NCBI RefSeq assembly: GCF_037975245.1
Contig: NC_092571.1
Coordinates: forward strand, 11,293,917-11,357,916
Origin: Apostichopus japonicus
Lineage: Eukaryota > Echinodermata > Holothuroidea > Aspidochirotida > Stichopodidae
Direction of reading: 5' to 3'
DNA length: 64,000 nucleotides
Shown here: positions 211-29,579 of the stretch, one piece after another
Layout: every line of letters begins with the position of its first letter
Position numbering within the stretch: position 1 is the stretch's first letter
The notes under the pieces: model-generated
Told to the model about the DNA's origin: nothing
Databases searched by the model: none
What the model saw: only the letters and a program-made list of their open reading frames with translations
Made by a program: the position numbers and the translations under genes

Positions 211-231
211 TTAGAGGAAAAGCAGATGCAG
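211..231 (+). CDS. Candidate 21-nt microexon, type A (LEEKQMQ)
   Basis: It is preceded by AAG and followed by GTACGA. The 21 nt read in phase 0 as LEEKQMQ. The upstream tract is A-rich rather than pyrimidine-rich, so the acceptor is weak. It is the first of eleven related cassettes on the plus strand. Confidence 0.4.
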
Positions 232-1660
232 GTACGAGAAACGAATATCTGCGGGTCATTTGTTAAGTACAGCATTTATGTCGCTGTTTAAAAACAAAAA
301 AGACCCGACAAAAAAGACCAAAAAGGACCCGACACCTTGAATTAGACAAGAATGACCTAACAAATAATAAAGTGTTTACTTACTGATATTTTTGAATACT
401 ATTTCTAATGAGAAAGATCAAAATTTGTATCTAATATTATAATAACATCTGGAATTAATCAATTGAGCCCCTTGCAGAAGAATTGTTAAACGATCACGAT
501 GGTCGAGACGCGTCGCTGCCGATCGAAGTCCCCGAGCAGAACGTTTGGACAATCCTGAACCGAAACTGGTCGGTTAAGCATAAACAAAACCACCGTTATT
601 AAGACCATAATATGATTTAAATTATCTCAAATGTCGATGATCCTGCTTCTTTAACTTCGTAGCGAAGCTTCTAGAATTTGGTTACGTACAATGCAAGGAA
701 AATGTGACATTCTATACAGTGCAAGTTCAACCCTACAGTACTATAGTTGTGGTAACATGGGGTATAGACCTAACTAATATACGTTGTATAACAGGCTAGC
801 CCGTGTAATGATATATTTTAACTGTTACGTAAAGTCATAACACAACGCCATTTTTACCACAAAAGAAAAAAATCTAGTAGTGATTGTTCTAAAACCAACT
901 GGTTTTTAGTTTTGTGTAAAATATTAGGTAACCAATAACAAAAATTGTCATTTGCTGCATCAAGGAGGCCTAGGCTATGGTCATTGCAGGTAATTTGACA
1001 ATAGTATAGGCCTACAAGCACTCGTTGTGTATGTGTAGTGTTTTGAACGAGTCGTGTCCAAATTCTCCGATTTCTGTCATCTTTTGGAAAAGCGTGCAGA
1101 TGAAATCGTCTTTAATTAGTGGTGGAGCAACCTGCACCCACACATCGGTTCGGCATATATAACAGTTACGATATAAATTTACGTCAAAACAAAACTCCAA
1201 ACCTCAAATCTCAATTACTACAGAGCACTGCAACAGTGTATACTGTTGTGTGTTCTCAGAACTTAAAGAATGTAAACATAGCGTCCCGGAAGTGAGCTGA
1301 GTTCCTCGACTGACGTCACGCCGCATTACCGTATATACAACAATTTTTAGAAAGTTTTTATTAAACTATATTACACTGTATTTTTGATCGTTTATTCCTC
1401 AAGGATGCAAGCTTCGTTTGACACAAATTGGATATCATTGGAAAGCTACGAGTGTACAGAATACGATGATAAAATCTGTCCATTTCATAACTTCTTTAAA
1501 AGTAGTCTACTTACTGGTATATTATTCAAAACGTGGGTGAGTGACAAATGCTTTATATTTTCCCGCAGAAATAGTAAATGATTACTATCAATATGTTATT
1601 GCACACGCTACTATTTATCTCCGGGAAAATAAAAACTTATTTCTTTTTCTTATTTACTTC
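232..1660. other. No gene seen; array flank and unrelated insert
   Basis: From 232 to about 430 this continues the type A unit flank, and it includes two AAAAAGACCCGAC-like copies near 296-335. A GC-richer patch at about 460-600 and the stretch to 1390 do not match the array and look inserted. From about 1500 the type C unit begins. No supported exon was found. Confidence 0.5.
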
Positions 1661-1668
1661 AAATATAG

Positions 1669-1686
1669 TTGGAGGAATCACGGCAG
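1669..1686 (+). CDS. Candidate 18-nt microexon, type C (LEESRQ)
   Basis: A strong pyrimidine tract ends in AAATATAG just before it and GTAAGAATGA follows. The 18 nt read LEESRQ in phase 0. It is one codon shorter than the other copies. The next cassette starts only 43 nt later. Confidence 0.5.
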
Positions 1687-1729
1687 GTAAGAATGAAGCA
1701 AATAAATTCTCTTTTTTTGTCGTATACAG

Positions 1730-1750
1730 TTAGAGGAGAACCAGAAACAG
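1730..1750 (+). CDS. Candidate 21-nt microexon, type B (LEENQKQ)
   Basis: The acceptor CTTTTTTTGTCGTATACAG precedes it and the imperfect donor GTTCGAATGA follows. It reads LEENQKQ in phase 0. Confidence 0.45.
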
Positions 1751-2030
1751 GTTCGAATGAAAAGATGGCACTATTTATAATCAATGAGGAAGAAAAATTC
1801 CTATTTCTAGTATTAACATTAAATCTTGAATTAAGATAGAAAAGATCGAAGAAATCTTAAAGGTAATCTACTTACTGGTATATTATTCATAACGTGGATG
1901 AGTGACAAATACTTTATATTTTCCCGCAGAAATAGTAAAAGGAGTACTATCAATATGTTATTGCATATGCTACTATTTATCTACAAGAAAATATTAGCCA
2001 TATTTCTTTTTCCCTTTAATTCATATATAG

Positions 2031-2051
2031 TTAGAGAAATCAAAACGGCAG
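2031..2051 (+). CDS. Candidate 21-nt microexon, type C (LEKSKRQ)
   Basis: A pyrimidine-rich acceptor ending in CATATATAG precedes it and the consensus donor GTAAGAATGA follows. It reads LEKSKRQ in phase 0. Confidence 0.5.
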
Positions 2052-2194
2052 GTAAGAATGAATGGGAGGTTACCGTACTGAAAACACCATAAAAACAAAC
2101 CAGTTTTCGTTTCAAACGAGGAAAAGAACCTTATACATCTAAAATTCAGATGTAGATGACACATTACATCATAAAGTGGCTTATTTTTTATTGT

Positions 2195-3490
2195 AATAAT
2201 AATAATAATAATAATAATAAAATGATAATGATAATAATAAGAATAATAATAAGAAGAAGAATAATAATAATACCAATAAATACCATATATTTAAGTGCTG
2301 TTATTCATGAAATAAAACATGCTCAAGAGCACTGTACAAAAGAACCAGTACCTGGAATATAAATACCAAACTTAAGAAAACCTAAAAGTAATAACAACAG
2401 CAATAAAAGTAAAAAATGATATAAGACAGGGTTATAAACCACAATAAGGAACATACAAATATAAATATACATAAAAATCGGCACTTTAATGTGAATAAAA
2501 CAACGAATAAGATTAATGCCCATACTCAAGCCTAAAAAGATAAGTTTTCAAATGCTTCTTAATAAAAGTGTCAATAGATGTGACATTTCTCAAGTGATGA
2601 GGAAGAGCATTCCAGAGTTTAGGACCTACTGCACTGAACGAACAATCACCATATGTGACTTTGTTAGTACGAGGAATGACTAGAGAAAGATTACTTTGGG
2701 ACCGGCTCCAGCTGGCGTGTAGCGTTTCACCAAATCAGTCATATAACTCGGAGATTGAGTCATGAAGAATACGAGAAACGTGCAGAATGAGCTTTTAATT
2801 TATCCAGCCATGAATTGGCAACCAATGCAGGTCTCGGAGTACCGGAGTGATGTGTTCGTAACGACGGGTTCTGGTGATAATTCTGGCAGCCGTATTCTGG
2901 ACACTCTGTAGTTTATTGATTGGGGAGCATAACGTTCCATTCAGGAGAGCATTACAGTAATCAAGACGAGATGTAACCAGCGAATGGACGAGAGACTTAG
3001 TTACCTCCTCCTTGGTTATGTACGAATTCTTCCGATGATGCGTAATTGGTTGTAACAAGAGCGACTACTTAAATTTATATGGTTTTCCAAAGACAAATAC
3101 GAGTCGAACAACACACCGAGATCCCGTACTGATGTCGAGGGTAGAATAACATCATTGCTCATTGCTTTGAATGAAAAAATATCACGTCTGTCTTGTACTC
3201 GTTAAGCTAAGCATATGATCAGCCATCCATTTTCTGACATCTTCAAGACATGTCTCCGATATATGTAGAGGATTTAATTGTATCAGGAGAATCATGTGGC
3301 TTAAACGAAAGGTACATTTGGGTGTCGTCAGCATACATATGGTAATCAAGGCCATGCTGCCTTATAACATCGCCCAGTGGTTTAGTATACATGGTGTATA
3401 ACTTTGGTCCTAGTACTGATCCCTGAGGAACACCATATTTAAGTAACAAAGGTGCAGATTTTATGTTATCGATGACGACGGACTGGCATC
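2195..3490 (-). mobile_element. 5'-truncated LINE fragment, CR1/L2-like
   Basis: Read on the minus strand, 3449-3243 encodes reverse transcriptase motifs: GVPQGSVLGP, then YADDTQMYL with the catalytic YADD. Then 3058-2795 encodes the C-terminal part seen in CR1/L2/jockey-type elements ([36 protein letters not shown]). A further stretch at about 2640-2520 reads like the usual end (GPKLWNALP ... LKTYLF). The 3' UTR runs to an (ATT)n-rich tail at about 2280-2195, as in L2-like elements. The frame is broken between segments, and the 5' half with the endonuclease is missing, so it is a dead copy. It sits inside the microexon array. Confidence 0.85.
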
Positions 3491-3658
3491 TATAAACATA
3501 AACATATTTACTGATACATGTTGAGTAAGGTATAAGTTACGAACCCTATAATTTTATGTAACAAGTGTAATGTAATTGACCTTGTTATCCGCGACATACT
3601 AATTATCAACGAGAAAATAAGAAATTACAATTTCTTTTCTTATTTTCTTCAAATATAG

Positions 3659-3679
3659 TCAGAGGAATTTATACGGCAG
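3659..3679 (+). CDS. Candidate 21-nt microexon, type C (SEEFIRQ)
   Basis: The acceptor TTCTTATTTTCTTCAAATATAG precedes it in two pyrimidine blocks and the donor GTAAGAATGA follows. It reads SEEFIRQ in phase 0. Confidence 0.5.
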
Positions 3680-3802
3680 GTAAGAATGATAGGGAGGTAG
3701 TGCAAACATCATAAAAAGCAGCTTTTATTTCATATGAGAAAACGAAATCTTATATCTAGAATTCATATATAGATGGAATATTACATCATAAAATGGTTCA
3801 TT

Positions 3803-4411
3803 GCACCCGATACTCATAGCTAGTACAGTAACTACTGTGCATGTTCCACAACCGTGCATCAGAAACTTCTGCTCTGTGTTCGTAACACGGTAACATGTGT
3901 TACAGGTGGCACAGTTATAACTGCAAAGCTGTTACACTTTCCCATGTAGGACAAAGAACTGTGCGACTGGACAAGGAGTCTATGAGTTTTTTCGTGATAA
4001 ACTATTACTACATTTAGGCCTAATTTAGACGTGGAGCTACCCATAAGGCTAATCTAGGTTCCCCCTCCCCACCTTAGGGCCCATTTTGTGTATCTGTTTT
4101 GTATCTATTTGAGACTTGCACACACTCACCTGTCCGTGAAGAATGTTTCAATCAAATGGATTTACTAATACGATTAGAAAAAATAAAATCTGAATCTCGT
4201 ATGCAGTATAAAACTAGGGAGTAGTCTTCGTTACCCAGCCGCCACGCATTTTCGCCTTTCGGACTCGTAGTTCAAAGTGTAACAGCTTTGCAGTAATCTA
4301 CTTTGCCACCTTTAACACATGTTACCGTGTTACGCACACAGCGCAGTAGTTACTGATGCACGGTGACGGAACATGAACAGTAGTTGCTGTACTAGCTATG
4401 AGTATCGGGTG
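3803..4411. mobile_element. Foldback/MITE element with long terminal inverted repeats
   Basis: The left arm (about 3804-3925) and the right arm (about 4290-4411) are inverted copies. Both begin CACCCGATACTCATAGCTAG when read inward, and both carry CGTAACACGGTAACATGTGTT. The motif TTCATT lies directly outside both ends (3797-3802 and 4412-4417), a likely target-site duplication with a one-base uncertainty at the left edge. There is no coding capacity. Confidence 0.75.
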
Positions 4412-4597
4412 TTCATTTAATGATAGAGTCTTGAGTAAGGTATACGTTACCAAACCATATCATTTTCAAAGGTTAATGTAATTGTCCTTTCTATCCACGA
4501 CATATACTATGCGTGTATTATTTATAGGTTATCACATATGCTCGTATTTATCTGTGAATTTACCAGCATTTTGCCAGTATTTTTCTGTTCTTTACAG

Positions 4598-4618
4598 TTA
4601 GAGGAAATTAAAAGATTG
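4598..4618 (+). pseudogene. Decayed type B microexon (LEEIKRL), donor lost
   Basis: The acceptor CTGTTCTTTACAG and the phase-0 reading LEEIKRL are intact. The sequence then runs straight into CAATATTTAGG, which in the 5391 copy lies downstream of the donor. A small deletion has removed the GTAAGAATGA donor. Confidence 0.5.
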
Positions 4619-4818
4619 CAATATTTAGGACCAACGAGGAAGAATAAAACTTAAATCTAGTATGAATATTACATCTTGAATTAAGATGATAGAAATGACC
4701 GAAACAATCCCCGCAGAAATAGTAAATGAGTACTAGCAATATGTTATTGCACACGCTACTATATATCTACGTGAAAATATGACACAAATTTCTTTATTCT
4801 TATTCCCTTTAAATATAG

Positions 4819-4839
4819 TTCGAGGAATCAACACGGCAG
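4819..4839 (+). CDS. Candidate 21-nt microexon, type C (FEESTRQ)
   Basis: The acceptor CCCTTTAAATATAG precedes it and the donor GTAAGAATGA follows. It reads FEESTRQ in phase 0. Confidence 0.5.
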
Positions 4840-5098
4840 GTAAGAATGAAGGGGAAGTTGTGAAGACATCATATAAAGCAATTTTTATTTCGAACGAGGA
4901 AAAGGACCTTATACATCTAGAATTCAGATATAATTGAAACACAACATCATAATGTGGTATTTTTACTGATAGAGTGTTGAGTATTGTATAAGTTACCAAA
5001 CCCTATCATTTTATGTATCAAGTGTAATTTTAATTAACCTTTTTATTCAAGTCATAGTAAAATTTATTTATAAATAATAATTAAATCATCTAAAGCAG

Positions 5099-5119
5099 TT
5101 AGAGGGAAAGCAGATGCAG
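5099..5119 (+). CDS. Candidate type A microexon with GC donor (LEGKQMQ)
   Basis: CTAAAGCAG precedes it. It reads LEGKQMQ in phase 0. The following bases are GCACGAGA where the copy at 211 has GTACGAGA, so the donor is either a GC donor or dead. Confidence 0.35.
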
Positions 5120-5390
5120 GCACGAGAAACGCATATCTGCGGATCATATGTTAAGTAGAGCATTTATTTTACTGTTTGAAAATACCCAACCCTTGAATGA
5201 GACAGGAATTTCCTGACAATGTAAAGGTGTCTGTTTACTGATAACGTTTGAATTATTGATGGTTGACCAATCTTTCACATTTATTCTAAATAACTGGTAT
5301 GCGTGTATTATCTTTACGTTATTGCATATGCTCGTATTTATCAATGAATTTACTAGCAAATGTATTTTCAAATATTTCTCTCTTATACAG

Positions 5391-5411
5391 ATAGAGGAAA
5401 ACGAAAACCGG
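5391..5411 (+). CDS. Candidate 21-nt microexon, type B (IEENENR)
   Basis: The acceptor TTTCTCTCTTATACAG precedes it and GTAAGAATGA follows. It reads IEENENR in phase 0. Confidence 0.5.
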
Positions 5412-5693
5412 GTAAGAATGAACAAATGACAATATTTATTTCCAATGAGAAAGAATAGAACCAATATTTAGTATTATCATTACATCTTGAATTAAGATAG
5501 AAGTGACCGAAAAATCTAGAATTGTGTCTACTTACTGGTATATTATTCAGAAAATGAACGAGTGACAAATCCTCCATATTTTTAACCAGAAATAGTACAT
5601 GTGAATTATTAATGTGTTATCGCATATGCTACTATTTATTTATCTACTAGAAGATGAAAAAAAAAATCTTTTTCTTCTTTACTTCATATAAAG

Positions 5694-5714
5694 TTTAGGA
5701 AATCAACAAAGCAG
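5694..5714 (+). CDS. Candidate 21-nt microexon, type C (FRKSTKQ)
   Basis: A pyrimidine tract ending in CATATAAAG precedes it and GTAAGAATGA follows. It reads FRKSTKQ in phase 0. Confidence 0.45.
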
Positions 5715-6002
5715 GTAAGAATGAACAGGAAGTATTGTTAACAACATAAAAAGCATTTTTTTTTATCAAACTAGGAAGATAACCCTTACATCTAGAATTC
5801 AGACATACACGAAAATGTCTTCAGAAAGTCGTCAATTTACTGATAGAGTTTTGAATAAGGTATAAGTTACCAAGCCATACCACTTCATGTATAAAGTGTA
5901 ATGTAATTATCCTTTTTATCCACGACATTTTAATTTTTATTAATGAATAATCATAAATAAAATAATATGAATAATATATAATTAAATATACATCTAATGC
6001 AG

Positions 6003-6023
6003 TTAGCGGAAGAACAGATGCAC
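6003..6023 (+). CDS. Candidate 21-nt microexon, type A (LAEEQMH)
   Basis: CATCTAATGCAG precedes it and GTAAGAGAAG follows. It reads LAEEQMH in phase 0. It is the last cassette recognised. Confidence 0.45.
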
Positions 6024-6818: not shown

Positions 6819-6911
6819 CGAGATTCAGACAGGTTATACAGTTTTTCATCAATACGTCAAGCAAAATAAAAATAAACAGAATACCAGCGCAAATCTATGT
6901 TTTCATTTTAG

Positions 6912-7055
6912 GAAGGAACACATCGTTTAGTTCAACTACATCAAGGACTTATCTCGCCGAAACACAAACCACGACCTCAACTGACGACTTCTTGGTACAC
7001 GATCATTTCTTTTGTTATGAAGATCGTTATAGGTGGTCTTACTTTGTACAATTAA
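6912..7055 (+). CDS. Possible terminal exon of the microexon gene
   Basis: A pyrimidine-rich tract ends in TTTTCATTTTAG just before 6912. Read in phase 0, as the microexons require, the frame stays open for 47 codons and stops at TAA (7053-7055). The predicted piece begins EGTHRLVQLHQG, has a basic middle (PKHKPRPQ) and ends hydrophobic (ISFVMKIVIGG). A second frame is also open here, so openness is weak evidence. The case rests on the acceptor, the matching phase and the position downstream of the array and upstream of the Ig gene. No family was recognised. Confidence 0.3.
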   Translation, partial: EGTHRLVQLHQGLISPKHKPRPQLTTSWYTIISFVMKIVIGGLTLYN

Positions 7056-7578
7056 CATTCACTTCTACATCAATCGTGTTGGAAATAAGTTTTAAAGCTC
7101 GATTCGTAGCAACGGTTTGTAATATTTTATTATATTTTGTTAAATTGAGACGAAAGTTTATCATGAGCGAAAGCAGATGGAATGTGTCGTCATTAAAATA
7201 GTCGTTATAATCAGAGTGTGTAAAATAACACGTAGAATTATAATATGTTAGTAACAATATTTTGCAATAAATACTATAACTGGTAATTCACACTATGTGA
7301 AATATTTGCAAAAATCAGGAACGGTAATTTAATGAAAAGTCATCCGTGAAAGAACCAAACGACTTAACTGATCAACCAGTTTAGTTGGGGAGAAGTCTTA
7401 ATTAAAACAAATTGGTGGTGATGCAGTGGTTTGTGAATGCATCCATTTGTAGCCCAGTTGGCTGAATTTCGTACGGTCTCTTATTTTAATGCTTTCAAAG
7501 TCTTATGAATATCTTCATACATTTCAGCATTAAATGAGTTATGCATATGTCACGCTAATGTTCTATTCTTGCTCTTAG
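7056..7578. other. No feature seen
   Basis: AT-rich sequence between the possible end of the microexon gene and the first supported exon of the Ig receptor. An undetected 5' exon of the receptor could lie here. Confidence 0.5.
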
Positions 7579-10500
7579 GATTCTAACTCGGGCAATAATA
7601 ATGATGCCATTGGTTGGTTTGTGTTGTGGTGCAACAGGGAACACAGGTGAGACAGTAACTTAAACAGTACTAATCTTTTACTAAAAGTTGCGAATTTTTC
7701 TTGGGGTATGCATATAAGCTATGCATATAAGTACATGCATATAAGCGTATGCATATAAGCTAAGATATGCATATAAGCTCCAAAGTTTGTGTTTGCGGTG
7801 GCGGCACCAGAAATTCAAAGGGGTAGGAAAGGGGTGGCGTCAGTGTAGGGGTAGCAAACAGTTTGGGGAGGGCAACAAACGGACATGTATAAAACGTACA
7901 TCAGGACGACACAAGGCATGTCACAAAGAGGAATTACACTTATATTTATCTTGAACGTATCTCAGTTGGTGCCTAGTTGGGGGGGGGGGGCGGCTCCGGA
8001 AGCTCACGCGTTTTCAAATATTCCTTTTTCGCAGTGAGTTTACACCGCAAAATGCATGTGAGAGAGAAAATCCTATATATGGAATTTATTTCTTGTGGAA
8101 GGCGTTGCAGTGCATTCAGGCTGTTCTCTTGTACCTATCTTAACTTAGCCCAGAAACACATTCTAGGGGTACAATTTCGATTGAATGTATTACATTGTAT
8201 AGGGGCCCCGGAAGGTGAGCATTTGGTATCCTTATATCAAGCAATTTGGACGTAAGAAAGGAGAGTCAGTTTGGTTTTGCAACAGCCGGTTGTGGGAGGG
8301 GGGGAGGGGCGGGCACCTTGGCGCTGCCACTTTGTGTGTATGCAAGTTGGGAAGGGTAAGGGAATTAGGGATATGTAATGTTAGCGAGATGAATCAGTTA
8401 CGAAGCATTTCAAGAGAAAGGTAAGGAAAATTGGATCTTCTTCATGAACCGTATTATTCATTGTTTTGCATTATAATTGAAATGTACGTTTCTACTTTGC
8501 AACCATCGACCTATATATATCTGAACATCACATAACACTCTGAGAGAACGAACCAATATAGAACGCAATTAATTGTTCGTGTATCATTTCCTAAGTCATA
8601 GTGATTTATACAGAATATCAATCTAACGTAATAAACTCATGCAGTAATATACTTGAGGGATCATTCTTTAGGATTGGAAGATATATAGCGACGGTTGAGA
8701 TTTTCCTTCTATGACAACTAAGATAGTTACAGTAATTGCGTTATTTCTGCATCATGATTAGGAATTCTTCATAACTCCAAACGATCAAAAACATTTCAAT
8801 AGTGAATAATTTCTGCATCTGGCCTAAGCAGCGTGCAATATGTGCAAATATATTAGTGGTAAGTTAATTCACTATTCGCCTACTAGTCATTTCTGTGCAT
8901 GCTAGTTGAACTACTAGTTCTTTTAATACAAACAAAACATTATGTGTCAGATGATTGGCAAATATAGCCTAAGCATAGCCTTGTCGGAACAGATAGCATT
9001 ATATCCGGATTATCGACAGATAAACCACGTTTATGATTGATAAACAAGGGAAACTTTATCCACCGATAAACATGATTTATTAACTTATTTAACATTTGCC
9101 TTCCCATACAAAATGTGCGAAATATTCTTCTCACATTTTGCAATAGACTGTCTCAAAACACAAAGCGTCTTGTTGGGAAGTCAAGGAATCATCAGATGCC
9201 GACTTGACGTTAACAGTACCCGTTTCTTCTGGTTCGATACGAATAATGAAGGAGGCGATACTCTATTGATCAAATTGGAGAATGGACGAGTCAGCGGAAT
9301 AGGATATACGAGAGGGGAATTCAACATAGACAGTGATGGCTCGTTGATTATCAACTCAGTCACGGTTCAGCACGAAAGAGTACTTCACTTTGAAAGTCTG
9401 AGCCCCAACTTGATTAGAAGCAATGACATAACAGTTATTGTATATGGTAGGTAGTACTACTATCGTCTCCCAGTCGAATTTGTCACGTTTTACTTACTAA
9501 TTATAATTTGAAACATGTTGAATAAAGTTTGTCACATCAATTATTGGCGGCAAGCAGTAATGTATATATGAGCTTCGTCAGAGTTACTTTAAATTAAATT
9601 AACGCTTTACGCAGTAAGTGAGTGAGTAATTTCTGTATATAGTATGGCCTTTGGCAGCGTGCAATTTGCAAGTGAGCGACTGGGTCATTGAGAAAGAAAG
9701 AAAAACGTTATGACAATATACCAGACAAGCTATGGAGAATTACACCCAGTGACATTTAAAATGCTGCGTCACAACTATTACTGCTATAAATCATAGATCA
9801 AACTGTATGCATCTGCACACAAGGCATACGTCCTGCTTGTATATTACAAAGCGAAATCGTCATCCGTTCCAGCTTTAAGACGTTTAATTGGACAAATTGG
9901 GTCCTGATTCCCCATTTTAATAATTCAGTTAGATATTCCTTGCAGTGAATAAGAAAACATTTCGTGGGCATTCACAATAACTCTACACAAGTAAAGTTTA
10001 TGACTTCGTTTCGCAGTTGAACCAATCGAACCAATCCCGGTTATTACAGAGTGCCTGGGTAAATCTGATTGCATCATGAAAGGAAATCTAGATGGAGTCA
10101 TCTCGTGTGTCCATCACAATACAAGACCAGCAGCAACAATATCGTGGTTCATGAGAGATGGGACTCACGACATACCACTGAACTCCGCCACAAATCAGAC
10201 TCTTTCTGCAGATTTGATTACTTTTACGGTAACCTCAGAGATGGCCATAGGCGAAATACCCTTTCTTGTTAAAATGCAGTCCTTCGTGTTACTTGTGTGC
10301 AAGTCTCACAACCCATATTCTTTGGTACAAGAATCCGATAGCAAAGTATTGCTTGATCTCTCTCAAAATGACCATTTCGAAAAACAACCGGATCCAGTTT
10401 ACGCTATTCAAAACCAAGACTTGGTAATAGAGTGCCCACTAACCATTGCTGTTGAAGATTTAATCGTGTTGTGGATGGCCAAATCGCTTGAAACAAGAAA

Positions 10501-13079
10501 CAGTGTTTACCTCAAATATTCGGCTTATGGTGTTGTTCCGTCAGTGGAGACCGATGAGCAATTAAGTCTCGACAAAAGCAGTGACTTAGTCATCTCACAA
10601 GTTGGATTACATAACGACGGGCTGTATGCATGTGTCCAAAGCACGGGAAACACCACAAAATCATTTCTGCAGCGTGTTGAAGTAATAGGTGGGTAACGTA
10701 TTTGTGTTGTGTACTGTTTCCGCTATTTATCATCTGCACCATTTTCCAAATTGTTCAAACATTTCAAAAATTAGAATCTATCAAGAAAAATATAAATTAC
10801 ATTTCTTTAATCTTCATACATTAGTGGGTGTCTAGCAGAGTTACAGAATAATCTTTAGTCTTTGTAGGACGAGAGAATGCTTTATCACGGACATCGATAC
10901 CATACAAGGCAGATAATGTTTTAATCGAATGGTTGTTTCTCAGTATGCTGGCTAATTAGAGGATAACAGTTTGCTTATTATTTTTGAAGATATTTCATTT
11001 TCAATGTATGTTTTTAACCAAAGTATAAAATCCATTAACATCAAACCAGATACGAACATGTTCTATGTCTATTATGATTTGTTTGTTTAGAGTATATGGT
11101 GTGATTCGTTGAGATACAAACCTGTTTAATGGTGTAGCAACCTGTTTCCAAATAGATATGGCCAGATAGATATTGTTGGCTTTAAGTTGCTTATCCACCA
11201 TGCATTGTCATTCTTTGGCTAGATGATATGCTGTAAATGAAGTTTTGGTGCAGACTTGTACTTGATTCGGCATTGTGATAACATGTAGCATGGTTCATCG
11301 TATATATTTCTTTTTGTTTGATTTACAGTTCAACCCACACCACCAAAAGTCTTGGTTGAAGGTTGCAACCTTTTTGAACCATGTAGTTTCCATATTTCCG
11401 AAACAAAAGGCATTACATGTAAAGTGAATGGAGTTCATCCTGAGGTGGAACTCAAGATAATAGTCATGTCAACTAATCTTGCTGTCATTAACACAAAGGT
11501 ATCAACCTACGAAGACAAGGGGCTGTTTTACACTAGCATTCATGGAGACGTGATTTTGGTTGATGCTAGCTGTCAAGTTAACGGAACTATCAATTGTCAA
11601 GCTGTGGGACCGGCTGCCAACGTCTTCAAATCAGATGCTTATATCTCAATATCATCTCGTAAGTATATTGTTGTTCTATACACGTTATTTCGTTGTAACA
11701 ATACTATTTACCAGAAATCCAAAATGTTGCCACCATTTATGTCAATTGTTTGAAGATATTTGGATATGAACCTTCAAGTCTAATATCGACTTTGTCTTGT
11801 CTTTTGGTACAACCTGGCCACATGATATTTCCAGAAACTACCCCTGTCTTACCATGGAGTTGTTATAACAACTCCCTGGTCTTACTATCAAAGGCATCCA
11901 CTGTCTCATCTTGAAATCTATGTCACTGCACTGTGTCTATACACAGAGTGCACTGAACTAGAAGTCCGCGATAACCAATGGCATGAAGATGTAAAGTATC
12001 AGGAAAAGTGATACCTTCCAACCAACACAAATTAAACTCAATACAAATATTGCTGAACTTCATTCTCTGTGCTCTATTCGTAAACCTACAAATGGCAGAT
12101 TGTTACAAAGGACTACTAGTCTGACTTCACTACGATGGAAAGAATATAAAACAAGAGGACTAGTATCAAATTAAAAATGAAAAAAAAAACTAGCATTTTA
12201 TCCTTGGCAAAAGTATAAAGGAATATACTTAGCCTTTTGGCTAAGATCATGTGTAGTATCTGTTCCCTTCGGGAATGGTGATGCACACCTGACGATGATC
12301 ACACAGTCACAGTCCCGATGCAAGGGGACTGGGGCTGAGAGCGGATCAGTCGTTTGGTAGTTTGGTTTTCGTGCCCATGTTCTTTCCTGGGTGACTTTTT
12401 CTTAAAAAGTATACTGGAAGGTGATGATTTGCCGGTTTGTTTTTGACGTAATCTCTACCGGTATAACTCAATTAGTACATGAACGTGTAACGTCATACTG
12501 AGTATTTATTGCCAAAACCTTGCGTCTAGTCCCGGGAAGATTCTCCCAGGCGCCCTACATGGGGATCGATTTCAAGGAGACCCTTCACACCCTTTACTTT
12601 ATTACATCCTGGATGCACGACTGGTTGTCATTGGTGATAATTTTTTATTTTTGTTTTGCAGATGAGGTAAAGTGTCCTCAAATTTTGGATGCTCCTTTTC
12701 CTGCTGACAAAGAAGTGCAGAACAGAGTAGGGCTTATTATATGTTTGACGATTGCTGTAACGTTACTTATGGTCTTCATTGGTAAGTTTGCGTTGCTATC
12801 GCAAGTCAAGTCACAAGTCATATATACTTTTGCCGCCAGTTTGTAAGTCAAATATGAAAGCAACTTATAAAGTCATGCTATAAGTATAGGCAAATGAACA
12901 TTTCACTGTCTAAGGCGCAACAAAGTAGGCCTAATTTGTGAAGTAATGTGGCTCCGGTGGATGGCTTGCATCAGTGTAGTTCAGCTGCATTGATATCTAG
13001 CAAAAGAAATCATCATGCAAGTGGATTGGACAACAATTGAAATTTATTTTAAACAGACACTTACAAATATGCAACTATG

Positions 13080-13134
<55 letters not shown>

Positions 13135-14857
13135 TACAAAGTATTCAGAATACATTGACTGCCCACAGCCACTAACTATTATACGTCCTGTGGTCGGGGA
13201 GACGGGAACAGTTTTGTTGGGAGGGTGGGGAGGGGCGGTTTGCGTTTTGACTGAAGAGAAACTTGAGAAACTGGTAGGTGCTTAGATGCAAGCTTGGTGC
13301 TATTTGTTGTGCATTTTTTTAAATGTCCACGGTTGTACTGTACAATTAAGCTACATGTATGACATGATTTTTTGTAATATCCTGACGGTGGGAGGGGACC
13401 AGGGGCACGGGAGTATGCCCTTGATGTTTTAGACCTCCCCTTGTGTGAACATGTATTGTTGATATTGATACAAAATTAACCAATATTGCAGATCACAGAA
13501 ACTAGTCAATTAAAAACCAAAACAATTCTGCTTACGAAGTATTGTATACTTACAAAGTGGGCAGTTTGTTTAATAATTATGGTACAACTGCACAATATCA
13601 TTTACTGGGAGCACAGGTGGTGGTGTGAAGTTACCGGAAGCTGCAGTATTGTTAGAGAAAAATATATATGCAAACACATATAGAAGGAGGATTTAATATT
13701 ACGTTCTTAGTGTTTATCTAAGAGTTCTAGAGGGGGTTCAGGGGGAAGGCCCGGACGATGTAACTTGTTAAAAATATTTCTTGCTGTTTTGTAGCGAGTT
13801 TATAGCACAAATACAGATGTTGGATAGAGGAATTCGATTTCTCTGGAATGTATTGCAAATTGGAATGTATAGGGTGAAGCACCATGCTTCTTTTGCACTT
13901 TGGTAATATTCTTTCTTCACTACTAATTAATCAGCTAATTACGCCTCCGAATGTACCATTTTGGCGTCTAAAGTTGTATAATTTACACTTCTGCTGGCCA
14001 AAGGCCTTCGACAACCTTTTTCATCTCCACGTATAATTTGCATTGGGGGTAGAACTAAACAACGGATGATTGTCACCTGGTGATTTTTTTTTTTTTTTTT
14101 AGTTTTTTAAAGTTCCTTTAAAATATGTTGCCAATTAAGTGAATGATTAAGATGTTTGTCGAGTTGTCAAGCTATATGCAACGAACCAACTCAGCAATTT
14201 GTCAAACTTTGTCAGAATGTCTTGTTTGCCCAATTAAAACTTGTCAATTTTTCTTTCTTTCATTATAGCGCTCATAGTCATCAGGAAATATTTTGCAAAG
14301 TCGAACTGTCGTAGACATGTAAGTATATATGTCCTTGTGTCTTTCAATAAACACATTGTCCATAAAGATTGCTACGGCTTCATTGCATTTTTCTACACAT
14401 AGTTCTGGGAATTTCAACAGAAGTCGATATTAATTGGCCATGTATTAGCGTTTAGTGCATTTATAACACAATTGTAGGCATCCCTGACAACCCCTTCCTC
14501 CTCATGAGATGAGAAATTGACATGTCTTCATTCAGTTTAATTCCAATGTGTGTTTTTCATTAATCAATCAATTAAATGTCAAAATTTTGTAAGAATATTT
14601 GCCACTTTGACTAGGAGAATACTTCCAAATTGAGTTTGAGGACAGAACTCTGTTACTGTAGATATAAACAATTATCATTGAGCATATGGAAAGTAATGGA
14701 ATAGAGAAGGGTGGTAGAAAGGTGAATGATATTGAACTTACATCGTACGAAAAACTCTTTGTAATGATCTCTTAGTAAATTCAAAATCATTCGTGTTTCC
14801 TTTCAGATGCAAGCGGTACCAGTGGTACCGACAGGCACGTCTACATCAGCGACCTAA
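7579..14857 (+). CDS. Single-pass membrane receptor with four Ig-like domains
   Basis: Coding parts: 7601-7646, 9147-9446, 10017-10688, 11329-11658, 12662-12781, 14269-14318, 14807-14857. Every junction has AG/GT sites, the phases match (1,1,1,1,1,1,0) and the sum is 523 codons including TAA. Exon 1 gives a short hydrophobic leader (MMPLVGLCCGATG). If the frame continues upstream (AIIMMPLVGL), a further 5' exon may hold the true start. Domain 1 (exon 2) has IIRC and FFW, but the usual second cysteine position reads VLHF. Domains 2 and 3 share exon 3: ISC...SWF...LLVC, then IEC...VLW...DGLYACV, the classic Ig pattern. Domain 4 is exon 4. Exon 5 carries the membrane segment (VGLIICLTIAVTLLMVFIG). 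The tail is only about 30 residues, basic then Pro/Thr/Ser-rich, with no ITAM or ITIM tyrosine motif. A cell-surface recognition or adhesion role is inferred; no orthologue was recognised. Confidence 0.85.
7706..7781. repeat. Short tandem ATGCATATAAGC repeats
   Basis: About five copies of a 12-16 bp motif, TATGCATATAAGC with variants, in the first intron of the Ig receptor gene. Confidence 0.8.
12229..12418 (+). mobile_element. U2-snRNA-headed SINE candidate
   Basis: Bases 12231-12265 match the 5' part of spliceosomal U2 snRNA almost exactly: GCCTTTTGGCTAAGATCA, then GTGTAGTATCTGTTC, including the GUAGUA branch-point-pairing element. Beyond that point U2 similarity stops: no Sm site and no stem-loops III-IV. 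The following body (about 12290-12411) recurs on the minus strand at 62241-62360 with shared blocks GATGCAAGG, GGACTGGGG, GGTAGTTTGGTTTTCG and GACTTTTTCTTAAAAAGTA. A snRNA head on a repeated body is the layout of the SINEU class known from crocodilians. It lies in an intron of the Ig receptor gene. Confidence 0.6.
13082..13131. repeat. (TA)n microsatellite
   Basis: An uninterrupted TA run of about 50 bases in the intron after the transmembrane exon of the Ig receptor. Confidence 0.95.
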
Positions 14858-19541: not shown

Positions 19542-22500
19542 CTATACATGATGTGCCTCCCTTACCTTTTTCCTCTTTCTTCTGGCAAGACGTCTCGATC
19601 TTTTTTTATTAGTAGCGTCCTCTCTTTGTTTGCCAAACTGCCTTTCTATGCTTTGATTGGCTTCTATTGTGACGTCTGTGTTCTCTTTCTTGCTTTGATT
19701 GTCTGTTACATTGGTATCTTTGGGTTCAAAGATGTTCAGTGCTTTCTTAATTTCGTCTTCGATCTTATTGCACAATCGTTCTTCCTCGGTAGTGCACTTC
19801 AACTCAGTTTCGATGTCAACCTCTTCGTGAGAAGTCGTTTCAACCTCGGTGATAAACTTCAACTCAGTTTCGGTGTCAGCCACTTCGTTGGTAGTCGTTT
19901 CAACATTGGTGGGGGATTTTAACTTAGTTTCGATGTCAACCTCTTCGTGAGCAGTCGTTTGAACCTCGGTGATAAACTTCAACTCAGTTTCGGTGTCAAC
20001 CACTTCGTTGGTAGTCGTTTCAACGTCGGTAGTGCACTTCAACTCGGTTTCGATGTCAACCACTTCGTTGGTAGTCATTTCAACCTCGGATGTGCACTTC
20101 AACTCAGTTTCGGTGTCAACCACTTCGTTGGTAGTCGTTTCAACCTCGGTAGTGCACTTCAACTCGGTTTCGGTGTCAACCTCTTCGTTGGTAGTCGTTT
20201 CAACCTCGGTTGTAAACTTCAATTCAGTTTCGGTGTCAACGTTTTCGTAGGTAGTCGTTTCAACCTCGGTAGTGCACTTCATCTCGGTTTCGATGTCAAC
20301 CACTTCGTAGGTAGTCGTTTCAACCTCGTTAGTGCACTTCAACTCGTTCTCGGTGTCAACCTTTTCGCTGGTAGTCGTTTCAACCTCGGTAGCACACTTC
20401 AACTCAGTTTCGGTGTCAACCACTTCGTTAGTAGTCGTTTCAACGTCGGTAGTGCACTTCAACTCAGTTTCGGTGTCAACCACTTCGTTAGTAGTCGTTT
20501 CAACCTCGGATGTGCACTTCAGCTCAGTTTCGGTGTCAACCACTTCGTTGGTAGTCGTTTCAACCTCGGTAGTGCACTTCAACTCGGTTTCGATGTCAAC
20601 CACTTCGTAGGTAGTCGTTTCAACCTCGTTAGTGCACTTCAACTCGTTCTCGGTGTCAACCTTTTCGCTGGTAGTCGATTCAACCTCGATAGTGCACTTC
20701 AACTCGGTTTCGGTGTCAACCACTTCGTTGGTGGTCGTTTCAACCTCGGTATTGCACTTCAACTCGGTTTCAATGTCTACAGTTGTTTCGGCTTCCTTTA
20801 AAGACTTTGCTGCCCTCTTTCTTTCCTGGTGAGTAAAACACATTGTCAAAATAAATCCAATAAACTTCTTCTAAAGGCCCACAGCCAACTGCTTACTGAT
20901 ACAACCTATGAACATAAGTTATCCAAAGTAATGTTTCTTGGAATGTTTCATCGACATTTCCTAAAATATACTAAATGTAAACATAATTACTTTGACAATA
21001 TGCTTGATTAAACATTTAGTTAATATAGTGAGAAGAACCAATTTCAACTCCTTTCTGATTATTATGGTAAACAAGGCTCGTTTATGAAGCTTCTCTCTCT
21101 CTATTGTAATCATAATCTCTTTTATTCAGCAAATTTGGAGGCCACAGAAATATCAACGACCCAACATCTGTATTATCTAAGAGTCTATATCGTTTGTCCG
21201 ACATCCACACGCGTAATGCATAGTGATACGTTAGGAAATGAAATCTAAGAAATTCATACCGACATAGACGACCCCTATCTAGTATACAAGATATGCCTTT
21301 CTCACCTTTTGCCTCTTTCTTCTAGCAAGACGTCTCGATCTCTTTTTATTAGTAGCTTCCTCTCTTTGTTCGCCAAACTGCCTTTCTATGCTTTGATTGG
21401 CTGATATTGTGACGTCTGTGTTCTCTTTCTTGCTTTGATTGGCTGTTACATTAGTATCTTTGGATTCAAAGATGTTCAGTGCTTTCTTTATTTCGTCTTC
21501 GATCTTATTGCACAATCGTTCTTCCTCACCGACATTTCCGTCAACTTTCTGTTATCAACATGCATGGAAAACAATTTTACACATCAGCTTACAGTCACTT
21601 ACGTTCAGGATTGACTGGGGTTCTGGCTATCATGTCTTGGCTTCAAATAATTTACAAGCGACTCCTCCCTAGCTCCGCCTATCCCCAGTCTCCCCCTCCT
21701 TCTCTTTCTCTCTACAAACACACCCACACACAGGATGGGCAACCTCTAGGTACCCCAAAACGACAACAATTTTAAAATAAAAGCACAACCGTTTCAAGGA
21801 TCTTACAGACAAACATTGATGCTAGATTACATTTTCTCAATATATTCATTAGATGTTTCATCAAGCATATTGTCAAATTAATTATGCTTACATTTAGTTT
21901 ATTTGGGAAATGTCGATTAAACATTCCAAGGCAATATTACTTTGGATAACTTATGTTTATAGGTTGTATCAGTAAGCAGTTGGCTGTGGGCCTTTAGACG
22001 CAGTTGAATAGATTTATTTTGACAATATGGATGCGTCTGTATTTTGGATGTCTGCATGATGCGGGAGAGTAACGGTCAAGTTGATGGTCTCGAGATGGTC
22101 AGCAAATAGAGCTCTCACCTGTTTATTTCTGAATTTCTTGGTATTATTCAGATTTTTCTTGTAAACCACTGGAACCTGCCACTGGAGTTGTTGCGGTAGT
22201 GCTGGTGTAACTCCTATTCGATATCTCCGAGGTTTGCGTGATTGATTCTGGATCAAGAAAGAACACGAGAAAACGTATATTTCCTAAGGGAAACTAAACC
22301 ACTTGATTTCTACAAAATATTGATATTTTCTACCGATAGGATATTCTTAAAGTATACTACTTGGTCTAGAAGAGTTCATTGCTTGTACCGTTACCATGTA
22401 AGGAGATGTGAAGAATTCTCGCCGTTTTGTTTCCTGATATTTCGTTGTTCTGGCTTTCTGTTGATGACCCATTTTCCTTGTTTCTTTATTTTCCTTGTCC

Positions 22501-25500
22501 GTTTGTTGTTTATTTGTTATATTTCCTGGTGTCTTCTTTTTGAAATAGGTTCGGTTACGTGTTCCACCTCCAATCTTAGGTGTTTGAACCTGTTTTGAAG
22601 TAATTAAAATGGGTAAAGCACATAACCATGTAATATCTTAATGATTAAAGAAAACATTGTAACAATATTTCTTTAAATGAATAATTCAACTGTAATTATA
22701 TCTGTATATTTATATGACAAGATTTACAGAAAGTAGAAGCAATGGATTGGCTTTAATATCCGCTGATGAGTTTACCTCGGTGTTGTTAACGACCTCTTCG
22801 GCAGTAGTTGTAGCCTTCATGGTTGATATAACCAAGATGTCGGCATCAATCCACGCTTTGACAGTCGCTTCAACTTTGGTTGTAGATTTAAACTCGGATT
22901 CGGTATCAACCTCTTCGTTGGTAGTCGTTTCAACCTCGGCAGTGCACTTCAACTCGGTTTCGGTGTCAACCACTTCGTTGGTAGTCGTTTCAACTTCGGT
23001 AGTGCACTTCAACTCGGTTTCGGTGTCAACCTCTTCGCAGGTAATCGTTTCAACCTCGGTAGTGCTTTTCAACTCGGTTTCGATGTCAACCACTTCGTTG
23101 GTAGTCGTTTCAACCTCGGTAGCACACTTCAACTCAGTTTCGGTGTCAACCACTTCGTTGGTAGTCGTTTCAACGTCGGTAGTGCACTTCAACTCAGTTT
23201 CGGTGTCAACCACTTCGTTGGTGGTCGTTTCAACCTCGGTATTGCACTTCAACTCGGTTTCAATGTCTACAGTTGTTTCGGCTTCCTTTAAAGACTTTGC
23301 TGCCCTCTTTCTTTCCTGGTGAGTAAAACACATTGTCAAAATAAATCCAATAAACTTCTTCTAAAGGCCCACAGCCAACTGCTTACTGATACAACCTATG
23401 AACATAAGTTATCCAAAGTAATGTTTCTTGGAATGTTTCATCGACATTTCCTAAAATATACTAAATGTAAACATAATTACTTTGACAATATGCTTGATTA
23501 AACATTTAGTTAATATAGTGAGAAGAACCAATTTCAACTCCTTTCTGATTATTATGGTAAACAAGGCTCGTTTATGAAGCTTCTCTCTCTCTGTTGTAAT
23601 CATAATCTCTTTTATTCAGCAAATTTGGAGGCCACAGAAATATCAACGACCCAACATCTGTATTATCTAAGAGTCTATATCGTTTGTCCGACATCCACAC
23701 GCGTAATGCATAGTGATACGTTAGGAAATGAAATCTAAGAAATTCATACCGACATAGACGACCCCTATCTAGTATACAAGATATGCCTTTCTCACCTTTT
23801 GCCTCTTTCTTCTAGCAAGACGTCTCGATCTCTTTTTATTAGTAGCTTCCTCTCTTTGTTCGCCAAACTGCCTTTCTATGCTTTGATTGGCTGATATTGT
23901 GACGTCTGTGTTCTCTTTCTTGCTTTGATTGGCTGTTACATTAGTATCTTTGGATTCAAAGATGTTCAGTGCTTTCTTTATTTCGTCTTCGATCTTATTG
24001 CACAATCGTTCTTCCTCACCGACATTTCCGTCAACTTTCTGTTATCAACATGCATGGAAAACAATTTTACACATCAGCTTACAGTCACTTACGTTCAGGA
24101 TTGACTGGGGTTCTGGCTATCATGTCTTGGCTTCAAATAATTTACAAGCGACTCCTCCCTAGCTCCGCCTATCCCCAGTCTCCCCCTCCTTCTCTTTCTC
24201 TCTACAAACACACCCACACACAGGATGGGCAACCTCTAGGTACCCCAAAACGACAACAATTTTAAAATAAAAGCACAACCGTTTCAAGGATCTTACAGAC
24301 AAACATTGATGCTAGATTACATTTTCTCAATATATTCATTAGATGTTTCATCAAGCATATTGTCAAATTAATTATGCTTACATTTAGTTTATTTGGGAAA
24401 TGTCGATTAAACATTCCAAGGCAATATTACTTTGGATAACTTATGTTTATAGGTTGTATCAGTAAGCAGTTGGCTGTGGGCCTTTAGACGCAGTTGAATA
24501 GATTTATTTTGACAATATGGATGCGTCTGTATTTTGGATGTCTGCATGATGCGGGAGAGTAACGGTCAAGTTGATGGTCTCGAGATGGTCAGCAAATAGA
24601 GCTCTCACCTGTTTATTTCTGAATTTCTTGGTATTATTCAGATTTTTCTTGTAAACCACTGGAACCTGCCACTGGAGTTGTTGCGGTAGTGCTGGTGTAA
24701 CTCCTATTCGATATCTCCGAGGTTTGCGTGATTGATTCTGGATCAAGAAAGAACACGAGAAAACGTATATTTCCTAAGGGAAACTAAACCACTTGATTTC
24801 TACAAAATATTGATATTTTCTACCGATAGGATATTCTTAAAGTATACTACTTGGTCTAGAAGAGTTCATTGCTTGTACCGTTACCATGTAAGGAGATGTG
24901 AAGAATTCTCGCCGTTTTGTTTCCTGATATTTCGTTGTTCTGGCTTTCTGTTGATGACCCATTTTCCTTGTTTCTTTATTTTCCTTGTCCGTTTGTTGTT
25001 TATTTGTTATATTTCCTGGTGTCTTCTTTTTGAAATAGGTTCGGTTACGTGTTCCACCTCCAATCTTAGGTGTTTGAACCTGTTTTGAAGTAATTAAAAT
25101 GGGTAAAGCACATAACCATGTAATATCTTAATGATTAAAGAAAACATTGTAACAATATTTCTTTAAATGAATAATTCAACTGTAATTATATCTGTATATT
25201 TATATGACAAGATTTACAGAAAGTAGAAGCAATGGATTGGCTTTAATATCCGCTGAGGAGTTTACCTCGGTGTTGTTAACGACCTCTTCGGCAGTAGTTG
25301 TAGCCTTCATGGTTGATATAACCAAGATGTCGGCATCAATCCACGCTTTGACAGTCGCTTCAACTTTGGTTGTGGATTTAAACTCGGATTCGGTATCAAT
25401 CTCTTCTTTGGTAGTCGTTTCAACCTCGGCAGTGCACTTCAACTCGGTTTCGGTGTCAACCACTTCGTTGGTAGTCGTTTCAACTTCGGTAGCGCACTTC

Positions 25501-29457: not shown

Positions 29458-29579
29458 AAAACGTAATGAGTTGGAAAATCCAGAACAGTGAAAAAAAAAC
29501 TTCCGGCCTCCACCGGGATTCGAACCCAGGCCACTCGCTTAGTATGCCGTTACCCTAGTAACCACTAGGCTATGAACGC
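29401..29579 (-). mobile_element. tRNA-like SINE with (TA)n tail
   Basis: On the minus strand, 29579-29506 (74 nt) has a Pol III A box (TAGCCTAGTGGTT) and B box (GGTTCGAATCC). It forms a TPsiC arm (CTGGG/CCCGG around TTCGAAT) and an acceptor stem with one mismatch (GCGTTCA with TGGAGGC). The anticodon arm does not fold cleanly. A short unique stretch follows and then an uninterrupted (TA)n run at 29455-29401. A tRNA-derived SINE is more likely than a working tRNA gene. Confidence 0.6.

Follow-up and report, generated by a model that had tools for sequence, protein, structure and literature searches.

What are the short, repeated blocks near the beginning of a 64,000-nucleotide (nt) stretch of the sea cucumber genome, and to which gene do they belong? 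The stretch, here called the window, comes from Apostichopus japonicus (RefSeq assembly GCF_037975245.1, contig NC_092571.1, positions 11,293,917 to 11,357,916 of the forward strand). The original prediction, made from the letters of the window, took eleven blocks of 18–21 nt for a tandem array of microexons that each encode one heptad. On balance, we favour the view that they belong to a small multicopy micro-exon gene, as internal coding microexons that are symmetric and in phase 0. Much of the case comes from a second, hypervariable array (type d) upstream of the heptad blocks, which the original prediction did not include and which is the stronger finding of the two.

Two arrays of short blocks at five loci

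Heptad blocks fall into three sub-types (a, b and c). Those of the window, with their predicted peptides and donors, are:

211..231, + strand: heptad microexon, type a, LEEKQMQ, donor GTACGA
1669..1686, + strand: 18-nt microexon, type b, LEESRQ, donor GTAAGA
1730..1750, + strand: heptad microexon, type c, LEENQKQ, donor GTTCGA (weak)
2031..2051, + strand: heptad microexon, type b, LEKSKRQ, donor GTAAGA
3659..3679, + strand: heptad microexon, type b, SEEFIRQ, donor GTAAGA
4598..4618, + strand: decayed block, type c by position, without a GT donor
4819..4839, + strand: heptad microexon, type b, FEESTRQ, donor GTAAGA
5099..5119, + strand: type a block, LEGKQMQ, followed by GC in place of GT
5391..5411, + strand: heptad microexon, type c, IEENENR, donor GTAAGA
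5694..5714, + strand: type b block with altered start, FRKSTKQ, donor GTAAGA
6003..6023, + strand: heptad microexon, type a, LAEEQMH, donor GTAAGA

The blocks lie where the original prediction placed them and have the structure that it described. All 11 are preceded by AG and are free of stops in phase 0; ten are 21 nt long and one (1669) is 18 nt. GT follows nine of the 11, the exceptions being 4598 (CAATAT) and 5099 (GCACGA), and GTAAGA follows seven (1669, 2031, 3659, 4819, 5391, 5694 and 6003). Judged by their sequences, the blocks are homologous copies, with chance excluded. A profile built partly from the window blocks recovers them with E values of 5e-16 to 0.01, and splice-site scores place ten blocks of the window locus within the top 8.1% among 259 AG..GT pairs from the same region, the blocks themselves counted in. 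The array extends beyond the window: a twelfth block lies outside it, 85 bases ahead of its first position. By eye, c-b-a is a frequent order of the sub-types. Signs of decay include the missing donor of 4598 and the altered start of 5694. Between blocks 2031 and 3659 lies a TAA-repeat with an insertion (window about 2190–3490). The – strand of this insertion seems, by eye, to carry what we take to be a reverse-transcriptase-like motif, and the insertion is therefore probably a retroelement fragment.

To place the blocks in the genome, 671,581,487 bases in 35 contigs were scanned. A pattern scan returned 48 forward matches, 45 of them on one chromosome (C11), versus two for the reversed control pattern; the three forward matches outside C11 look like chance. 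Microexon units are present at five loci on C11, all on the + strand: the window locus (W) and loci A, B, C and D. A sixth locus, E, lies on C6 and is considered below. In a table of 69 heptad blocks, which excludes part of the near-identical B copies, 55 have both AG and GT, and 49 of these 55 are multiples of three. Type c has been amplified at locus B, which holds 50 profile matches, 43 of them 21 nt long with AG and GT; 42 of these 43 intact exons are open in phase 0. Many B copies are spaced about 350 bp apart, and the amplification is recent. Further classes of microexon were sought with an AG-anchored scan of 7604 sites, which yielded 260 families with at least four members; by eye, only the two arrays and their sub-frames look flanked by splice sites.

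Each unit of the d array consists of a conserved acceptor tract, an exon of 18, 21, 24 or 27 nt, and then GTAATG or a similar donor. A DNA search found 36 d units, every one of them at the five C11 loci, and at least one more decayed unit is present in W. The statistics given here use 33 of the 36; the remaining three are one intact unit in C and two units in D that lack an acceptor. All 34 d exons that retain AG are multiples of three (33/33 in the statistics plus the intact C unit), and a GT donor is present in 31 of 33. Exon length varies in seven of the 33 copies, each time by multiples of three. In 24-base windows of the introns, by comparison, 87–88% of length changes are not multiples of three, and none of 66 such windows behaves like the exons. 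One family of d exons, ICLL, is hydrophobic. The first d exon contains an in-frame ATG in A (MYDFVQ) and in D (MYDSFQ), a candidate start codon.

On average, the d exons are also more divergent than the sequence around them. Mean identity among d units reaches 0.86 over the 40 bases that precede the exon and 0.73–0.74 further out, but drops to 0.50 in the exon itself; exon identity falls below that of the flanks in 280 of 325 pairs, many of which are not independent. The contrast is sharpest among young B copies. One B pair is identical at 450 of 450 positions upstream of the exon and at 431 of 449 downstream, yet its d exons agree at just 14 of 21 positions, with a 3-base gap. Of the five B pairs tested, four show excess exon divergence (Fisher P from 4.9e-8 to 2.7e-3). 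In the heptad array, the splice sites of type b stand out, with an identity of 0.82 in the last ten acceptor bases and 0.88–1.0 in the donor. Type c donors reach 0.76–1.0, with some intron bins at up to 0.85, and a-type donors are weakly conserved (0.42–1.0).

Reading phase, a proposed terminal exon and the predicted product

Heptad blocks at the five loci contain a stop in phase 0 in three of 49 cases, in phase 1 in four of 49 and in phase 2 in 27 of 49. Phase 1 is thus nearly as open as phase 0, and the heptad blocks do not by themselves decide between the two. The d array is more informative. Among 24 distinct d exons with GT, stops occur in none in phase 0, in ten in phase 1 and in four in phase 2; for 12 cluster representatives, the shuffle probability of finding no phase-0 stop is 0.008. 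Phase 0 is also the phase of a proposed terminal exon between the last heptad block and the leader exon of a downstream immunoglobulin (Ig) gene, and we favour phase 0 because the d array and this exon agree on it. The proposed elements in the window are:

6912..7055, + strand: proposed terminal exon, coding part and stop, phase 0, 47 codons (EGTHRLVQ...LTLYN)
7266..7271, + strand: AATAAA, proposed poly(A) signal of the micro-exon gene (alignment read by eye)

The acceptor at 6911/6912 is aligned in six of six loci, and no conserved donor follows it in a five-locus alignment. An AATAAA follows the exon in five of the six. In phase 0 the exon is open for 43–48 codons in five loci and for 108 in D. 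Phase 2 meets a stop after five codons in the five loci read (A not among them); phase 1 meets one after six codons in B and D and runs for 26–95 in E, C and W. Genome-wide, there are six matches to the terminal exon, one per locus, none of them with a stop.

Two other ways of joining the heptad blocks to coding sequence were considered. The first Ig exon (Ig1) has a phase-1 acceptor, and phase-1 blocks might be spliced directly to it; this was dropped because the d array and the terminal exon agree on phase 0. An exon between 6023 and 7579 might instead convert phase 0 to phase 2, but when five loci were aligned, without D, the 68-nt Ig leader exon was the only one with a donor that passes the score.

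The gene would then run, at five loci, from one or more 5′ exons through the d array of hypervariable 18–27-nt microexons and the heptad array of mostly 21-nt microexons, which would encode charged heptads such as LEENQKR, to a phase-0 terminal exon that carries a stop and is followed, in most copies, by AATAAA. With few exceptions the intact exons have lengths divisible by three, so joining, skipping or duplicating them leaves the frame intact, and splicing and unequal crossing-over could alter the protein by short blocks. From the window locus, whose exons with AG and GT encode, by eye, LKKSTKQ, LEEKQMQ, LEESRQ, LEENQKQ, LEKSKRQ, SEEFIRQ, FEESTRQ, IEENENR, FRKSTKQ and LAEEQMH, the predicted product would carry these ten peptides followed by the 47 residues EGTHRLVQ...LTLYN. 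The original prediction that the blocks are symmetric coding microexons is thus probably right, chiefly because of the d array and the phase-0 terminal exon, with splicing itself predicted from sequence features.

Its suggestion of a coiled coil that splicing would change by whole heptads fares less well. In 31 of 36 distinct stop-free 21-nt exons the first codon encodes a hydrophobic residue; at every other position this holds for 0–6 of 36, and one exon encodes six residues. The heptad product would therefore have a single hydrophobic stripe in place of the paired a/d positions of a standard coiled coil, and would more likely form a charged helix.

Several observations weigh against a micro-exon gene of this kind. 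In the heptad array, six of the 55 blocks with AG and GT are not multiples of three, phase-0 stops interrupt the three of 49 counted above, and several copies are decayed. The interiors of heptad exons are no better conserved than their introns. Their mean identities (b 0.70, c 0.73, a 0.75) resemble those of nearby intron bins, and the higher conservation of the blocks over neighbouring repeat sequence that the original prediction had named as a check is not found: interiors at 0.70–0.75 fall within the range of the flanks, and what stands out is the splice sites of type b. Among d exons, the fifth tested B pair shows no excess divergence (P 0.68). Phase-0 changes within d families (3 synonymous and 28 nonsynonymous, against an expected synonymous share of 0.22; P 0.06) are only suggestive. 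Exons of the ICLL family (identity 0.90) are better conserved than their flanks (0.77), and in HYME/QDME pairs exon and flanks are conserved to a similar degree; because these families depart from it, the acceleration of d exons is not general. For the terminal exon, mean nonsynonymous divergence (dN) is 0.152 and mean synonymous divergence (dS) 0.148 (15 pairs, with D the most divergent), near-equal values that give no sign of purifying selection; the exon that encodes the second and third Ig domains (Ig2-3) of the neighbouring gene has dN 0.063 and dS 0.160. A search for the 5′ exon of the micro-exon gene found none. One candidate, a first exon beginning MGPSSAMARVEV in A and D, has a phase-0 donor in those loci but not in W. 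Finally, the terminal exon is present at locus E, but the 20 kb examined there contain no array; three weak microexon candidates were found at E, none convincing, and its upstream exon (see below) is, by eye, closed in phase 0.

The neighbouring Ig gene and other explanations

On the same strand, downstream of the arrays at all five loci and likewise present at E, lies a gene that we read as separate from the micro-exon gene and that encodes a transmembrane protein with four Ig domains. Its exons in the window are:

7579..7646, + strand: 68-nt leader exon, entered in phase 2 and left in phase 1 (Ig frame)
9147..9446, + strand: Ig1 exon, phase-1 acceptor (boundaries by eye)
10017..10688, + strand: Ig2-3 exon, two Ig domains (boundaries by eye)
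11329..11658, + strand: Ig4 exon (boundaries by eye)
12662..12781, + strand: proposed transmembrane exon (by eye; homologous stretch in other loci)
14269..14318, + strand: proposed short cytoplasmic exon (by eye)
14807..14857, + strand: proposed last coding exon with stop (by eye)

In the Ig2-3 exon the other five loci are 86–91% identical to the window copy, and a relative on C12 is 44% identical. A search with this exon gave at least 97 matches, about 69 of those listed being on C16; the C16 matches, at 23–34% identity, form a large family with two Ig domains per exon. Among solved structures, the nearest to the Ig2-3 exon are weak Ig matches (best E 0.046). Ig1 reads as a phase-1 entry in the six loci and in the C12 relative. 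The main acceptor of the leader exon is identical in six loci, and the Ig frame requires that it be entered in phase 2; the leader does not fit phase 0.

Locus E suggests how the arrays came to lie here. At E, splicing of a 36-nt upstream exon to the 68-nt leader in phase 2 would give MYLTCKRLNWILSQALIIIQLVGLCGVATGNT before Ig1, by eye a good signal peptide, and the signal peptide of the Ig gene seems to be split across two exons in E. The region of this upstream exon is matched at six loci; in A and D the match is confined to sequence ahead of the exon. Read by eye, W and B have an altered form of the exon, A and D lack it, and the C copy is open in two frames. From the arrangement of upstream exon and leader at E, the arrays seem to occupy a former intron of the Ig gene. 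A GC-rich short-unit repeat (cgaagtcgccgcaagcccctttcc type; L004:7600-8200) lies between the upstream exon region and the arrays.

The position of the arrays, between the upstream exon and the 68-nt leader, suggests a rival reading in which the microexons are alternative 5′ exons of the Ig receptor gene, left untranslated or encoding a variable N-terminus ahead of the leader, so that there would be one gene and not two. Untranslated upstream exons would be allowed by an ATGATG inside the leader exon of W, A, B and C (the E leader has no ATG), and a second AG inside the leader would admit phase 0 to the Ig frame in A, C and E. That AG is absent, however, from W, B and D, and the main acceptor needs phase 2, in which stops interrupt four of 24 d exons and 27 of 49 heptad blocks. 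Untranslated exons would also leave the multiples of three and the open phase 0 of the d array unexplained, and a phase-0-compatible terminal exon lies ahead of the leader. We regard this one-gene reading as unlikely.

The arrays could instead be functionless intronic tandem repeats, with splice-like motifs kept by recent common descent. The decay or broken frame of many heptad copies, heptad interiors that evolve like their flanks, a terminal exon with dN/dS near 1 and the recent amplification at B would all fit. Against this, d exons stay in frame at four lengths while their flanks vary freely, the 24 distinct d exons contain no phase-0 stop, and the d exons of young B copies change much faster than their flanks, which is not expected of neutral repeats. 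Such repeats therefore strike us as a poor account of the locus, less probable again than the one-gene reading.

It is very improbable that the heptads form the cytoplasmic tail of a receptor resembling chicken BG, whose Ig and membrane exons would lie unrecognised upstream. In chicken BG, tails of 21-nt heptad exons come after Ig and transmembrane exons, and among the sea cucumber d exons the ICLL family is hydrophobic. However, no Ig match lies upstream of the arrays when the exons of this family are used as queries, nor does any Pfam Ig domain in + strand frames of the upstream stretches L003, L004 and L005 and of the first 3 kb of L019, L022 and L023, in searches that could miss a very divergent domain; and BG heptad exons split their first codon, whereas the sea cucumber blocks fit phase 0. 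We give almost no credence to the notion that the blocks form the 3′ ends of alternative signal-peptide first exons, whose pyrimidine tracts would code Phe/Leu-rich residues in phase 1: open hydrophobic phase-1 frames with Met do precede several b-type blocks (e.g. window 1955–2051) and Ig1 accepts phase 1 in the six loci and the C12 relative, but many blocks have no preceding Met, ten of 24 d exons have phase-1 stops, and length variation before the AG tract breaks the frame, for which reason such first exons were dropped.

Elsewhere in the window, three long – strand frames carry 20-residue tandem repeats (19542–20870, 22710–23360 and 25200–26948) in 60-nt units of the EVETTTNEVVDTETELKCTT type, apparently one family of repeat proteins. 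A 45-base tandem repeat in 11 copies (35250–35745) is open in three + strand frames. A match to a transfer RNA model at threshold (29.1 versus 29 bits; 29505–29579, – strand) lies beside an AT repeat and is perhaps a tRNA-derived repeat.

Comparison with known micro-exon systems

Our literature search returned no paper on micro-exon genes in echinoderms or on microexons in Apostichopus japonicus, and none of the titles listed concerns this locus; PMC13428168 has no bearing on it. As a tentative possibility, the arrays may be an independently evolved echinoderm micro-exon system, in which hypervariable cassettes and amplifiable heptad cassettes, both in phase 0, belong to one small-protein family co-duplicated with Ig receptor genes. 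Diversity would arise through splicing and copy number, and we infer a protein product that may act in recognition or defence. If splicing follows the prediction, entire microexons can change far more quickly than the neighbouring introns yet keep the frame, and do so in an animal outside the flatworms. Such a system would bear on how tiny exons are recognised and how tandem exon duplication makes new protein, and it would physically tie a micro-exon family to Ig receptor genes in an echinoderm.

The original prediction knew of no comparable heptad array in a deuterostome; in this it was wrong. Chicken BG genes, of the butyrophilin family, encode tails with heptads on 21-nt exons and a few of 18 or 24 nt (PMC5938342, PMC4046983), and the first codon of these exons is split between exons (PMC5938342). 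The sea cucumber blocks likewise place heptads on many exons of 21 nt with few of other lengths, and both systems are multicopy families of changing copy number in an Ig receptor context. The two differ in that BG heptads follow the Ig-V and transmembrane exons of the same gene, whereas in the sea cucumber the arrays precede the Ig gene and no Ig-V or transmembrane exon was found ahead of the heptads in those upstream regions that were searched. They probably differ in phase as well, since phase 0 is favoured over a split first codon by the d array and by the terminal exon. They also differ in chemistry, codons 4 and 7 being mostly hydrophobic in BG and only codon 1 here. A second, hypervariable array also sets the sea cucumber loci apart from BG.

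To our knowledge, heptads are not the pattern of the schistosome micro-exon genes (MEGs). These genes consist largely of very small symmetric exons, are described as all having a signal peptide and 'appear to be restricted to platyhelminths' (PMC4350168). MEGs and the sea cucumber loci share fast evolution and multicopy organisation, and the very small symmetric exons predicted here would be a further likeness. Where the MEG coding region is largely made of such exons, we find symmetric 18–27-nt exons with predicted splicing at five loci; where MEGs have a signal peptide, the sea cucumber loci offer the hydrophobic ICLL exons and, in A and D, a first d exon with a candidate ATG.

The behaviour of the d exons recalls ASSET in snake venom genes, in which exon segments are switched between similar introns (PMC2711939). 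In both cases, short exon segments are replaced by unrelated sequence while the introns stay similar. The ASSET segments, however, lie inside ordinary exons of folded proteins, whereas in the sea cucumber it is whole microexons, in tandem arrays, that change.

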